Shown here one piece after another: positions 5,245 through 19,070 of a DNA stretch of 36,027 nucleotides. Position 1 is the stretch's first letter; every line of letters starts with the position of its first letter. The translations under genes and the position numbers were made by a program. The notes beneath the pieces are model-generated. The model was given only the letters and a program-made list of their open reading frames with translations. It ran no database searches and had not been told where the DNA came from. Source of the DNA: a virus; IMG/VR virus record IMGVR_UViG_3300018067_000016, positions 1 through 36,027 of that record. One strand, given 5' to 3'.

Positions 5245-6299
5245 GCCTTCTTCACCTTCTTGCTCTTGGTGGGTAGGGGTGGAGGTGGCGGCGGGGTGTC
5301 ACCGAGCACCAGCTTGCGGACCTCGTCTTCGATGGTGGCCTGCAGGTCCAGGTCCTCACGCATGGAGGCCAGCACTGGCTCCTTGCCGTTCCACTTCTGG
5401 CCGGCGTAGTGGTACCAAGCACCCTGCCGGGTGATGATGTCGTAGGTCAGGGCGATCGCCCACAGCTGGGACGCCAGGTCGTAGTCGCCCTTCTGGAAGG
5501 GTCCGTAGTTGGTGAAGTAGAAGGGCGTGACGCCGACACGCATCGGCGGGGCCGTCTTGTTCTTCATCGCCAGCGCCTTGATGACGAGGCCGACCTTGTT
5601 CTTGCCGGCATCCAGCAGCCACTCGTCGCGCACCACCTCGACGCGGATGAAGTAGCTGAAGTTCTTGCCCTTCCCACCTGGGGTGGTCCGAGGGTCGCCG
5701 TACATCACCCCGATGCGGTCCCGCCACTGGTTGATGATGAGGCACAGGCAGTCGCGCTCGTCCACGGTGCGGCGCTGGGACTTGGGTGACTTCCGCATCA
5801 GCTTGTTGGTGAGGCGAGCACCCAGGCCAGGGAGCGAATCGCCCATCGCCCCCTCGCCCTCACCGCTGGGGATCAGAGCCGGGTAGGAGTCCAGCACGAT
5901 GGCGTCCACCGACTGAGCGTCGAGGGCTTCCAGCATGATCGTGTAGGCGTCCTCCATCACGTTGGTCAGGGCCAGCACCACGCGGGTGGTGTCGACGCCA
6001 AGCTCCTCGGCCCACTCCTTGTTGAAGTCCTCCGAGGCAACCCACAGCACCTGGTAGTCCGGGTTGATCATCATGTTGGCGGCGATGGTCTTCAGGACCA
6101 TGACCGTCTTGCCGTGGGATTCCAGGCCGATGATCTCATTCCAAACGTTCAGCGGCCAGCCCCCACCGAGGGCCAGGTCGAACGACAGTGAGCCAGTGGT
6201 GGCTCGGCGGAAGGTCGGGATCTCGCTGGCGTACACCAGCACCTCGGCCTTCATCTCCTTGTTGACCTGAGCGATCAGTGCGTCCACGGCGGTGGTCAT
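5241..6299 (-). CDS. recA: RecA-type recombinase
   Basis: The 352-residue length equals that of bacterial RecA. Residues ~31-50 (RATTGSLSFDLALGGGWPLN) match the RecA core opening. Walker A is GLESHGKT (residues 58-65, with H in place of the usual S), and Walker B is in DAIVLDSYPALIP. The loop preceding the C-terminal domain has GGKGKNFSYFIRVEV, equivalent to RecA's GGNALKFYASVR. A lysine-rich tail (TKSKKVKKA) replaces the acidic tail of E. coli RecA. It would form filaments on ssDNA and drive strand exchange for recombination-dependent replication. ATG at 6299 follows GGGGGACAC, and a promoter plus leader hairpin precede it. Confidence 0.9.
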   Translation of the reverse strand: MTTAVDALIAQVNKEMKAEVLVYASEIPTFRRATTGSLSFDLALGGGWPLNVWNEIIGLESHGKTVMVLKTIAANMMINPDYQVLWVASEDFNKEWAEELGVDTTRVVLALTNVMEDAYTIMLEALDAQSVDAIVLDSYPALIPSGEGEGAMGDSLPGLGARLTNKLMRKSPKSQRRTVDERDCLCLIINQWRDRIGVMYGDPRTTPGGKGKNFSYFIRVEVVRDEWLLDAGKNKVGLVIKALAMKNKTAPPMRVGVTPFYFTNYGPFQKGDYDLASQLWAIALTYDIITRQGAWYHYAGQKWNGKEPVLASMREDLDLQATIEDEVRKLVLGDTPPPPPPLPTKSKKVKKA

Positions 6300-6318
6300 G
6301 TGTCCCCCAACAGAAAGG

Positions 6319-6361
6319 ACGGGTGAAGGAGCAGCTTCCGCCGTCGCTCTCCCTCACCCGT
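6319..6361 (-). promoter_or_regulatory. Leader hairpin in the recA 5' untranslated region
   Basis: Arms 6319-6331 and 6349-6361 pair at 12 of 13 positions around a 17-base loop. The structure would start within about five bases of the predicted transcription start and end about 20 bases before the recA ribosome site. A strong stem at the very 5' end of an mRNA usually protects it from decay; attenuation is an alternative. Confidence 0.55.
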
Positions 6362-6372
6362 CTTCGGTGCCA

Positions 6373-7014: not shown

Positions 7015-8979
7015 TCATTTCCCCTTCGCTGCAGCCCAGGAGTACCCGACCTTGCTGGAAACGATAAGCGGGACCTCGCCCAGGATGGGTGACCCGTCGA
7101 GAGCACGGACGTTGGACATGGTGTGGGACACCAGCCCGAGGACCTCCTCGGCGTAGGCCTCCTCGCACCGCACGATGATCTCGTCGTGTACCTGCAGCAC
7201 CATCTGCGCTGGATATCCCGATATCCACTTGTGCATGTCCAGCATCGCCATCTTGGTGATGTAGCTGGCGAACCCCTGTACGAGGGCGTTGATGGCCTGG
7301 CGCTCGGCCCGCCAGCGCATCCACTCCTCGCCCTTGTAGTAGTTCATCAGGTCAGGGAGCCGGCGCAGCCTGCCGAAGGGGGGGATGATGATCGTAGGTG
7401 GGTCGGTCGAGGGGCTGGTCGGGTCGCAACGGTCACGGGCCTCGTACAGCACCCGCTTCTTCCAGGGTTCCAGCCCGCCGAACATCTCGTAGTAGCCGTC
7501 GATGAGCTTCTGCGCCCGACGCTTGGAGCACTTGGCCACGTAGGCGATCTTGTTGACGCCGGCCCCGTAGATGATGGCGAAGTTCTGGGTCTTGCCGACC
7601 GCCCGCTGCTCGTCGGTGACCTTGGTGAGGGGGATGTTCCACATGGCTGCCGCGGCCTGCTTGTGGACGTCGTCACCCCGCTTGAAGACGACCAGCATGT
7701 TGGGGTCGCCCGACTCGTAGCCGGCCACGCGCAGTTCGATCTGGTCGTAGTCGGCCACGATGAGGACGTGACCTGGACCGGCGATGAACAACTCGCGAAT
7801 GACCGAAGACTTCGGGATCTGGTGGAGGTTGGGCTTCTCCGCTGAGAACCTGCCGGTCACCGTGCCGTGCTGCTTGAAGCTGGTGTGCAGCCGGGGCAGG
7901 TCGGAGTCCCGGCGCGACAGGTACTTGTCGAAGCCGACGACGAAGGTGCCGCGCAGCTTCTCGTAGGCCGACCACTCCAGGAACAGGCGGGCCACCTCGT
8001 TGCTGTTGGCGTAGCGCTCCAGCACCGCCTTGTTCACCTGGGCGACGTCAGTCTTGGCTGTGCGATTGAGGGGGACCAGGCCCTGAGGCTCCAATGGGTG
8101 ACCGTTGACACCGACCGGCGTCTCCTTGCCCTTCTCCACCTCACCGAACAGGACGTAGCGCTTGGTGGCGAGGTTGGTCATCGGGATCTCGTCACCGATC
8201 AACTCGCCCACCTCCTTCTCGATCCGGGCGATGGAGTCGGTCAACTCGACGCCCACCTTCTCCATCGCGGTGAGGTCGATCGGGAAGCCGGCCGACTCCA
8301 TGTCCATGAGCACCGGGTACATGCTCATTTCGAAGTCGTAGACCTTCAGCAGGCCGCGGCGGATCAGCTTGGGCCACAGCCTGGTGAAGAGGTACCGGGT
8401 GTAGGTGAGGTCCTTGTTGAGGTACGAGGCGATCTCATCCAGGCCGAAGCGTTCGATGCCGGCCTTGCCCATCGACGGGTACCACTTCTTGCGGTCCTTC
8501 GGCTGGAACCAGTCGATCGTCAACTCCTTCAGCCCGTACTGAGGGAGTGACTCATCGATGACGTGCTGCACAACGAGGGTGTCGTGGTAGGGACCAGGTG
8601 GGATCTTGCCGTAGTACTTGGCGATCGTCTCCAGGTCGAACTTCAGGTGGTGGTTGAGCTTCGCCCGGTCGCTGAACAGCAGGGGTTCGATCAACTCGGC
8701 CACCTGGTAGGGGAACAGCTGCTTGGGTGGCGGGGCGTAGGTCGCCGGCACAACGTGCTCGACCATCCGCATCGACGGCTTGCCGGTCGGGGTCAGGCCG
8801 CGCTCGTCGTTCCAAAGCACCGAGGCCGGCGTCTTGGCCTTGCCTCCCACCGTGAGCCTGACCCCCTTGGGGTGACCGCAGGGGATCAGGAACGACTGGG
8901 CGGTGCAGCCGAGGCCGCACCACACCATCTCGTTGGTCTGGGTGTCGAGGCCAGTCGTCTCCAGGTCGATGACGAACAT
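7015..8979 (-). CDS. polA: DNA polymerase, PolA family, with 3'-5' exonuclease
   Basis: This 654-residue family A polymerase replicates phage DNA. Exo I is FVIDLETTG (D5, E7), Exo II is HHLKFDLE (D115) and Exo III is SYLNKD (Y186, D190), so proofreading should be active. Polymerase motifs are A, VADYDQIELR (D410), B, RAVGKTQNFAIIYG (K463), and C, LQVHDEII (H598-D599-E600). There is no 5'-3' nuclease domain. ATG at 8979 puts D5/E7 exactly where T7 gp5 has them, yet the frame stays open upstream and reads like a usual Exo N-terminal segment (YPHVLLTAEEVRGAVDLLRG) without a standard start codon; see findings. A strong hairpin occupies the region just upstream. Confidence 0.93.
   Translation of the reverse strand: MFVIDLETTGLDTQTNEMVWCGLGCTAQSFLIPCGHPKGVRLTVGGKAKTPASVLWNDERGLTPTGKPSMRMVEHVVPATYAPPPKQLFPYQVAELIEPLLFSDRAKLNHHLKFDLETIAKYYGKIPPGPYHDTLVVQHVIDESLPQYGLKELTIDWFQPKDRKKWYPSMGKAGIERFGLDEIASYLNKDLTYTRYLFTRLWPKLIRRGLLKVYDFEMSMYPVLMDMESAGFPIDLTAMEKVGVELTDSIARIEKEVGELIGDEIPMTNLATKRYVLFGEVEKGKETPVGVNGHPLEPQGLVPLNRTAKTDVAQVNKAVLERYANSNEVARLFLEWSAYEKLRGTFVVGFDKYLSRRDSDLPRLHTSFKQHGTVTGRFSAEKPNLHQIPKSSVIRELFIAGPGHVLIVADYDQIELRVAGYESGDPNMLVVFKRGDDVHKQAAAAMWNIPLTKVTDEQRAVGKTQNFAIIYGAGVNKIAYVAKCSKRRAQKLIDGYYEMFGGLEPWKKRVLYEARDRCDPTSPSTDPPTIIIPPFGRLRRLPDLMNYYKGEEWMRWRAERQAINALVQGFASYITKMAMLDMHKWISGYPAQMVLQVHDEIIVRCEEAYAEEVLGLVSHTMSNVRALDGSPILGEVPLIVSSKVGYSWAAAKGK
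7213..7224. repeat. Dispersed ATAT motif, exact copy in polymerase gene
   Basis: ATATCCCGATAT, extended to GGATATCCCGATATCC (7211-7226), a perfect dyad of 7-base arms; codes for W-I-S-G-Y-P. Confidence 0.65.
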
Positions 8980-8982
8980 CGA

Positions 8983-9030
8983 CTCACCGCGGAGGAGGTC
9001 GACAGCCCCCCTGACTTCCTCCGCGGTGAG
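8983..9030 (-). promoter_or_regulatory. Long hairpin ahead of the polymerase start
   Basis: Arms 8983-9000 and 9013-9030 pair at 17 of 18 positions (CTCACCGCGGAGGA and its complement form most of each arm) around a 12-base loop. It sits between the stop of the ssDNA-binding-type gene (9047) and the polymerase ATG (8979) and ends three bases before that ATG. The only ribosome-site-like bases (GGTGAG) are inside the stem, so translation of the polymerase should be sensitive to its opening. Confidence 0.75.
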
Positions 9031-9046
9031 AAGGACGTGCGGATAC

Positions 9047-9772
9047 CTACTCGTAGTCGTCCATCATCTCGTCTGCGATCTCCTTCAACTCCTTGCGAGG
9101 AGGGATCTGCAGGACCGTCTTGTCGTACAGCTTGAACGACTTCAAGCGATCCTCGTCGGGGACCGGGGTGTCGTAGTCCTCGGTCAACGCGGTGCGCTTG
9201 ATGGGGCTGACGTTGTACTGCGTCGACTGCTTCTGGCCCGACTTGTTCACCAGGAAGAAGCCCTTGGTCAGCGGCCCGATCTTGGCGTCGTTGGCGTAGG
9301 ACTTCAGCACACCGAACAGGCGTGCCCCCACATCCCAGGACTTCAGCGAGATGTCGCCGTTGGCGTCGAGGAGGAATACGTTGAAGGCCGACACTGCCTG
9401 GGGACGCACGCCCACCTCGCACAGCGGGCACTCCTCGCCCACCGTCTGCAGGCACACGTACGAGCGGGTGCTCTTGCCCTCCTTGGTCTGGCGGTCGACC
9501 CAGTGCCGGCGATACGCGATGTACGGGGCCTCTTCCGCGAAGGCGATGATCTGGCTGCGCTCCTCGGGGCGGAAGCCCTGGGCGAAGGTGGACGTGGAGT
9601 CCATCACCTCTTGGGAGCCGCCCCAACCACCACGCAGGGCGTCGTGAGCATCACCCCCAGCAGGAGGCGAGGACCGGTCAGCCGCACGCTTGCGAGGCGG
9701 TTGTGAGGACTCGTCGTCCTCTTCAGGCGGCTCCGCGAGGGTCGGCGGGGCTGGGGGTCGCTTGGATGGCAT
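9047..9772 (-). CDS. Single-stranded DNA-binding-type replication protein (gp32-like)
   Basis: The 241-residue protein has a disordered, charged N-terminus (residues 1-50), then a core with YIAYRRHWVDRQTKEGKSTR, a cysteine group YVCLQTVGEECPLCEVG (C107, C115, C118), FNVFLLDANG, and SYANDAKIGPLTKGFFLVNK. It ends acidic (EIADEMMDDYE). This order, with a small metal site in an OB-like core and an acidic tail, is what phage gp32-type ssDNA-binding proteins show, and it sits directly upstream of the polymerase. ATG at 9772 follows GAGGT. The acidic tail would contact partner replication proteins. Confidence in the exact family is moderate. Confidence 0.65.
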   Translation of the reverse strand: MPSKRPPAPPTLAEPPEEDDESSQPPRKRAADRSSPPAGGDAHDALRGGWGGSQEVMDSTSTFAQGFRPEERSQIIAFAEEAPYIAYRRHWVDRQTKEGKSTRSYVCLQTVGEECPLCEVGVRPQAVSAFNVFLLDANGDISLKSWDVGARLFGVLKSYANDAKIGPLTKGFFLVNKSGQKQSTQYNVSPIKRTALTEDYDTPVPDEDRLKSFKLYDKTVLQIPPRKELKEIADEMMDDYE

Positions 9773-10642: not shown

Positions 10643-10986
10643 TTGCGACGACGCTTCTTGGACTCAGCGATGCGCTGGGTGATGAGCATGACGCGGAACT
10701 CACTGCGCGTCGGACGGGTGCCCTTGGCGTACTGGTAGCCGGGGGGCCGGGTGTAGTGGCGATTGAGCAGTTCGCCGTAGTGGTTGATCGAGTCCCGCCG
10801 CTCCATCCCACAGCGCTCACAGCGCAGGGTGAGGGGGACTCCGAACATGGGTGTCCAGTTGCTGTCGTAGTCGAACCACGAATGGCCCAACGTGTTGCAG
10901 CGCAGGTAGCCCTGGTGCTCATGGTCGACGGTGGTCTGGAAGGCCTCCCCAAGGAGGCCTTCCAGATCAGAGATCGTCTCGCTCAA
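10639..10986 (-). CDS. Conserved-type phage protein with C-x2-C motif
   Basis: The 115-residue product includes YLRCNTLGHSWFDYDSNWTP, LTLRCERCGMERRDSINHYG and RPTRSEFRVMLITQRIAE, an arrangement I associate with small actinophage proteins: C ... GH..F near the start and CERCG in the middle suggest one zinc site (Cys, His, Cys, Cys). It ends in a lysine/arginine cluster (KKRRRK). The start is TTG at 10986, six bases after GAGGT. A candidate promoter lies just upstream at 11021-11050, so this gene may lead the transcript that continues into the zinc-finger, HTH and replication genes. Confidence 0.65.
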   Translation of the reverse strand: MSETISDLEGLLGEAFQTTVDHEHQGYLRCNTLGHSWFDYDSNWTPMFGVPLTLRCERCGMERRDSINHYGELLNRHYTRPPGYQYAKGTRPTRSEFRVMLITQRIAESKKRRRK

Positions 10987-16687: not shown

Positions 16688-16789
16688 TCCCATAGCCTCG
16701 TTGGATTGTGCCCCAGTCCGTCCCCCCGATGAGGTTCCGCTTCAGCGAAGCCTCATCGGTACCCCCCACCGGGGGGCCGAGCTATGGGA
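16688..16789. other. Multi-branch foldable intergenic element
   Basis: Within the 172-base gap between the winged-helix gene and the 141-residue gene, TCCCATAGC (16688-16696) pairs perfectly with GCTATGGGA (16781-16789), extended by three pairs past a one-base bulge. Inside are two further stems: CCGATGAGG/CCTCATCGG (16726-16734 with 16751-16759, nine perfect pairs, inner stem CGC-TTCA-GCG) and CCCCCC/GGGGGG (16762-16767 with 16771-16776). The result is a closed three-way junction of about 100 nucleotides, without tRNA features on either strand. It could be a structured RNA, a leader or part of a replication origin. Confidence 0.6.
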
Positions 16790-17895: not shown

Positions 17896-17943
17896 GGCTG
17901 CTCCTACTTTCTGTTGGCTCCACCGCTGAGAGTAACGCACGCG

Positions 17944-17971
17944 AAGAGGCCCCCCGAAAGGGGGGCCTCTT
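17944..17971. terminator. Strong bidirectional hairpin (GAAA loop)
   Basis: AAGAGGCCCCCC-GAAA-GGGGGGCCTCTT is a perfect 12-bp stem with a 4-base loop, in the gap after the VWA gene and before the winged-helix gene. It would end the leftward VWA transcript; only two T residues end the stem, so termination may be imperfect. Confidence 0.7.
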
Positions 17972-17983
17972 GACGTTCCGGGG

Positions 17984-19003: not shown

Positions 19004-19027
19004 CCACCGTTGGCTTGAAACGCGAAA

Positions 19028-19049
19028 GAGCGGCCCCGAAGGGCCGCTC
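19028..19049 (-). terminator. Rho-independent terminator
   Basis: GAGCGGCCC and GGGCCGCTC form a perfect 9-bp stem; in the leftward RNA the loop is UUCG, an especially stable tetraloop, and the stem is followed by UUU. It would end the transcript of the two helix-turn-helix genes at 20224-19071. Confidence 0.75.
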
Positions 19050-19070
19050 CTTGCTCACCCTCCCAGGCGA

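Follow-up and report, generated by a model that had tools for sequence, protein, structure and literature searches.

The gene for a family A DNA polymerase on the minus strand of a bacterial virus, IMG/VR record IMGVR_UViG_3300018067_000016 (positions 1 to 36,027; this whole stretch of 36,027 nt is called the window) has no ordinary start codon before the segment that encodes the beginning of its exonuclease domain, and comparison with related sequences suggests that the polymerase is probably begun by re-initiation at an ACG codon at 9054, its most likely start. The gene order on this strand is SSB-type gene, family A polymerase, small genes, and RecA; an SSB is annotated at the same place in Streptomyces phage Alone3. 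The features of the junction are as follows.

9047..9772, minus strand: SSB-type gene, 241 aa, ending ...DEMMDDYE (phrog_1192, E=7e-7; phrog_14578, E=8e-7)
9064..9066, minus strand: in-frame TGA, the upstream limit of the polymerase frame (from the sequence)
9058..9060, minus strand: second in-frame ACG, a less well placed alternative (from the sequence)
9052..9054, minus strand: proposed polymerase start ACG, with an 8-nt overlap ACGAGTAG (9054-9047) with the SSB-type gene (position of the ATG or GTG of relatives L025, L027, and L171; ACG also in L003)
9047..9049, minus strand: TAG stop of the SSB-type gene (from the sequence)
8980..9054, minus strand: predicted polymerase leader (M)SRYPHVLLTAEEVRGAVDLLRGES, strand 1 and helix 1 of the 3'-5' exonuclease domain (relatives' alignment, constraint, Klenow alignment, AlphaFold model)
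9013..9030, minus strand: 5' arm of a hairpin in the leader
9001-9012, minus strand: hairpin loop, 12 nt, containing most of a GGGGGG run
8983..9000, minus strand: 3' arm of the hairpin, in the leader
8977..8979, minus strand: ATG chosen by a standard ORF caller, not conserved (ACG in L003), 3 nt past the hairpin
7015..9054, minus strand: family A DNA polymerase with 3'-5' exonuclease, 679 aa if begun at ACG 9054 (PF00476, PF01612)

The SSB-type gene ends ...GAG ATG ATG GAC GAC TAC GAG TAG, and the polymerase frame, which is +1 of the SSB-type frame, is open across this stop. An earlier note, made from the sequence of the window alone, had stated that, before ATG 8979, the polymerase frame is uninterrupted as far back as a TGA and offers no NTG or ATH codon on the way. 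Both statements are borne out: the TGA lies at 9066-9064, and none of ATG, GTG, TTG, CTG, ATT, ATC, or ATA occurs in the polymerase frame between it and ATG 8979. After the TGA the frame reads TGG ACG ACT ACG AGT AGG TAT CCG CAC GTC CTT CTC ACC GCG GAG GAA GTC AGG GGG GCT GTC GAC CTC CTC CGC GGT GAG TCG ATG(8979), with in-frame ACG codons at 9060 and 9054, neither of which that note had listed. The AG of the SSB stop and the G that follows it form the polymerase-frame AGG (Arg) codon. As this is the Arg of an R-x-P motif, translation in this frame probably begins no later than the stop.

Several lines of evidence bear on whether the leader is genuine polymerase sequence. The polymerase domain PF00476 is matched at E=2.2e-78 and the exonuclease domain PF01612 at E=1.4e-6, with the first strand-helix present before Exo I, and a match to PHROG 17 (DNA polymerase) begins inside the leader. 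The relatives given by a scan of IMG/VR span 33-100% identity; the closer ones mostly align across the leader, and over 30 relatives possess it. Among 20 aligned sequences (relatives at 40-87% identity) the leader Pro is invariant, and most read R-x-P-H-V-(L/I)-L-T...E...AV. A profile of the relatives aligns the leader with the start of the Klenow exonuclease domain (ILDEETLKAWIAKLEKAPVFAFDTET), at a score of 6.7 bits that is weak by itself. In an AlphaFold2 model, residues 1-20 have pLDDT values of 83-95 and form a short strand and a helix (9-19) that precede the Exo I strand (24-31); in this model a start at 8979 would delete strand 1 and helix 1. The Klenow alignment, the modelled strand and helix, and the conservation in relatives thus uphold the proposal of the earlier note that the leader is the start of a family A exonuclease domain, and alignment and model together identify it as the predicted true N-terminus of the polymerase and as real coding sequence. 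A comparison with homologues, which that note had suggested, found the leader conserved and nearly always begun with ATG or GTG. Every close homologue has the leader, and the observation that the note had named as contrary evidence, homologues starting without it at the equivalent of ATG 8979, was not made.

The closest informative comparison is with L003, a separate genome from a different sample whose polymerase is 87% identical to that of the window; L002 and L023 are identical copies of the window sequence. The SSB-type gene of L003 also ends GGACGACTACGAGTAGG, 17 nt that are identical in the two genomes, and its leader, RHPRVLLTGEQVRGAVDLLLREDTF, is likewise without a canonical start before it. 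L003 retains ACG AGT AGG x CCG, and its codon equivalent to ATG 8979 is ACG. Over the first 19 leader codons the two genomes differ by 15 substitutions that change four residues, versus 9.0 expected under random placement (P=0.00045), and over the full leader 8/24 residues change in the polymerase frame versus 15/23 in each of the other frames. Because substitutions are biased to the synonymous sites of the polymerase frame, the leader behaves as translated in that frame. PHVLLT is retained unaltered in the window, and the leader there has neither a stop nor a loss of frame. Chance, one of the origins that the earlier note had entertained for the open leader, is excluded by homology, by frame-specific constraint, and by structure. 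A sequence or assembly error that conceals a normal start, also raised there, might be suspected in a metagenomic assembly, but the same junction occurs in three assemblies, the identical L002 and L023 and the diverged genome L003 from another sample, and this explanation is scarcely credible. All other genes with a clear boundary share an ATG, GTG, or TTG there between the window and L003, a few gene pairs being ambiguous or out of frame. A GTG within the L003 leader was considered as a common start and rejected, since the corresponding codon of the window is GTC and a start there would forfeit most of the leader. Searches of viral contigs for further relatives with the same junction, by junction pattern and by alignment, gave only those already known, and a scan of genome contigs gave only relatives at about 32% identity or less.

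How the relatives begin their polymerases indicates what may have been lost. In about 30 of ~33 distinct relatives with a visible junction, an ATG or GTG stands in frame some 3-21 codons ahead of the leader Pro, commonly 3-4 codons ahead of it and often at, just past, or overlapping the SSB-type stop, as in TAG-NNN-ATG (L009, L014), TGA-CGT-ATG (L025), TGA-GTC-GTG (L171), GTGA (L013, L239), and TGATG (L026, L184). Read from the sequences, this geometry is that expected of translational coupling. Four codons before the Pro, L025 and L027 have ATG, L171 has GTG, and the window has ACG 9054, so that the N-terminus (M)SRYPHVLLT predicted for the window stands beside MRRAPHLIL (L027), MRRRPHVLLT (L171), and MARRPHVLLT (L025). 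The exceptions, with no in-frame ATG or GTG, are the window (with L002 and L023), L003, and L173. In L173, a 5.3-kb contig, the region 1050-1160 offers only a TTG 22 codons upstream, and a GTG at the base of its hairpin, which precedes a G6 run, misses the frame by one base; this junction could reflect error, a TTG start, or slippage.

From these patterns a mechanism can be proposed in which the lineage of the window and L003 has lost an ordinary ATG or GTG before the leader. Ribosomes terminating at TAG 9049-9047 would step back and re-initiate at ACG 9054-9052, across the 8-nt overlap, and the product would be fMet-SRYPHVLLT..., a low dose of polymerase coupled to SSB. We infer initiation at ACG, the re-initiation route, and the low polymerase dose alike. 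In Escherichia coli, re-initiation or leaky events at non-AUG codons have been recorded close to stops: given mutant initiator tRNAs, re-initiating ribosomes can start at such codons, and when recycling fails, non-canonical codons that lie 3' of a stop are used (PMC2268962). An overlap of -8 is a recognised short class among termination-reinitiation pairs (PMC10666635), and the candidate start lies within a few nucleotides of the upstream stop in just this class (ACGAGTAG, 9054-9047); the canonical NTG start of such pairs is absent, with no NTG or ATH in frame. It is the 8-nt overlap, taken with the coupling-like geometry of the relatives and the reports of non-AUG re-initiation, that favors re-initiation at ACG. 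The Shine-Dalgarno match before ACG 9054 is weak (-3.0 kcal/mol, versus -7.2 for the SSB-type gene and -8.4 for RecA). As a start codon in bacteria ACG performs poorly, and no documented natural case was found in the literature searched. An ATG would arise if TAC in the SSB-type gene changed silently to TAT, yet neither lineage shows this; TAC is preferred 222:20. The start-less arrangement is known from two lineages only, the window and L003. If the weak start has been selected, its likely purpose, we conjecture, is to keep polymerase low relative to SSB.

Another feature of the junction is the hairpin in the leader, formed by the top inverted repeat reported in the window (18-nt arms, 94% complementary, 12-nt gap). 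A hairpin in the same register occurs in L003, L031, and L171, with 16-17 of 18 pairs versus 2-11 in others. In a gapless alignment of these three with the window, 91.7% of cells are paired and six pairs are changed on both sides; the covariation score is reached by 0 of 500 shuffles, and slid registers of the alignment are at most 54% paired. Protein sequence and codon bias lead one to expect 12-13 of 18 pairs (13 for the window, in which 17 are observed), and the observed pairing is reached by 15 (the window), 7, 42, and 9 of 2000 synonymous shuffles in the four sequences, with no such excess in controls. That the hairpin is a mere by-product of protein and codon bias is therefore partly true, but the excess pairs and compensatory changes remain. 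The fold energy of the whole window leader is unexceptional against synonymous shuffles (z -1.35), and a search for a known RNA family gave only far-below-threshold matches.

Hairpins at this junction extend beyond the four sequences. Most relatives other than these carry, in the linker that separates the SSB stop from the leader, a hairpin of unrelated sequence, and in 28 of 36 relatives the strongest junction stem beats every control window in the same polymerase gene. Strong junction hairpins, in leader codons or linker, are seen in the window (8983-9030), L003, L031, L171, L180, L005, L010, L012, L018, L020, L022, L024, L026, L028, L173, L181, L188, and L218; they differ in sequence and loop (G6 or UUCG), and covariation supports the leader version. 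A GGGGGG run in the loop or just before the hairpin, encoding a linker Gly-Gly, is found in L005, L010, L012, L013, L020, L181, and L188, and this recurring run resembles a Shine-Dalgarno sequence or, alternatively, might be a slippery run. Elsewhere in the window an inverted repeat (6318-6362, 14-nt arms, 93%) lies a little ahead of the RecA-like gene, which starts at 6299; this suggests that further gene junctions also have hairpins, and similar repeats occur at 10932-10969, 17939-17976, 16726-16759, and 19025-19052. On our reading, the junction hairpin may attenuate or process the mRNA between a much-needed SSB and a less-needed polymerase, or may be an operator like that of T4 gene 43.

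The earlier note had offered four explanations without choosing among them; with error and chance removed, a non-canonical start is the best supported, and its codon can be named as ACG 9054. A doubtful alternative is that some ribosomes undergo a programmed +1 shift, or a hop, where the SSB-type gene ends (GAC TAC GAG TAG G); such recoding would yield an SSB-polymerase fusion and leave the polymerase without a start of its own. The frame relation that it requires is real, as the polymerase frame lies at +1 to the SSB frame and continues open past the stop; in addition, the 17 nt GGACGACTACGAGTAGG are identical in the window and L003, a strong hairpin lies downstream, and a T4 gene 60-like hop can be drawn from the GAG before the stop to polymerase-frame GAG codons that, in both genomes, lie inside the hairpin and at its end. 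However, no P-site codon re-pairs after a +1 shift (GAG to AGU, TAC to ACG, GAC to ACG/ACU), and without a re-pairing slippery site recoding becomes less likely. A prfB-like Shine-Dalgarno stimulator is also absent (GATGGACGACTAC GAG TAG; weak aSD energies), a hop would skip constrained leader coding sequence, and ARAGORN found no tRNA gene, including no phage-encoded suppressor or unusual initiator tRNA, in the window, G001, and G002. The hairpin begins 16 nt past the TAG and also occurs in L171, L031, and L180, whose starts are ordinary, so it is no recoding signal; a main role as frameshift stimulator was rejected on this ground and because most others have it in the linker. It is rather unlikely that recoding across the TAG, through a +1 shift or a GAG-to-GAG hop, is the sole source of the polymerase, which would then exist as a natural regulated fusion to the SSB-type protein and have no start codon of its own.

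Initiation of the leader at a different non-canonical codon, ACG 9060, AGT 9051, or AGG 9048, is also unlikely. All three are in frame and conserved in L003, and retention of R-x-P implies that translation probably includes AGG 9048 or begins there, but only the two ACGs are one change from ATG, and ACG 9060 is further both from the position of the relatives' starts and from the stop. The idea that the window polymerase starts at ATG 8979, its leader being a relic kept by overlap or hairpin constraint, is very unlikely, as is any function of this ATG as a start. The codon exists, a weak GGTGA precedes it, and T7 gp5 also starts close to its Exo I motif. Against it, the codon is ACG in L003, strand 1 and helix 1 would be lost, and the leader shows constraint (P=0.00045) and an intact PHVLLT, with no stop or loss of frame. 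Burial of the GGTGA in the 3' arm of the hairpin also speaks against this start. The observation that opened this analysis is thus confirmed, and its first interpretation was in part right.

If re-initiation at ACG 9054 is true, a conserved replication gene starting at ACG would extend the natural start codons of bacteria and phages. It would also mean that gene finders cut functional N-termini at non-canonical starts, the choice of ATG 8979 dropping the first strand and helix of a proofreading domain. The occurrence across the family of a hairpin between SSB and polymerase suggests a common means of setting the ratio of the two proteins.

Comparison with known systems places the junction among several precedents. 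It resembles the prfB +1 frameshift in having a stop codon at the frame change and differs in having neither a re-pairing P-site codon nor an SD-like stimulator close upstream. With the T4 gene 60 bypass it shares a stop at the frame change, a nearby hairpin, and matched take-off and landing codons (GAG-TAG ... GAG, in the window and L003; GAG is a common codon and the match carries low weight), but the stretch that would be skipped here is protein-constrained coding sequence. The translational operator of T4/RB69 gene 43 is a hairpin whose loop is conserved and which lies about 40 bases before the start (PMC3014915). A conserved hairpin near a phage polymerase start is found here too, any repressor binding being putative, although it is longer, lies within codons, and has a variable loop. 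The cultured Streptomyces phages Alone3 (L250, 1311-1386) and BRock (L251, 1318-1386) have SSB, then a strong intergenic hairpin, then the ATG of PolA, the upstream gene of BRock being annotated only as hypothetical. They are alike in gene order, leader, and a hairpin between the genes; their hairpin is intergenic, however, and their polymerase has an ATG, in BRock with a strong SD as well. Conserved weak starts are known in infC and pcnB (AUU) and in Staphylococcus aureus ccpN/cvfC1 (PMC13009471). These share with the window a conserved, inefficient start presumed to hold dose low, but theirs are ATH, with an extended SD in S. aureus, whereas the window has ACG, a weak SD, and coupling to the upstream gene. 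The termination-reinitiation pairs with short -4, -1, or -8 nt overlaps (PMC10666635) are likewise unidirectional, with a start a few nucleotides inside the upstream gene, an 8-nt overlap, and little SD, but their start is NTG where the window has the proposed ACG.
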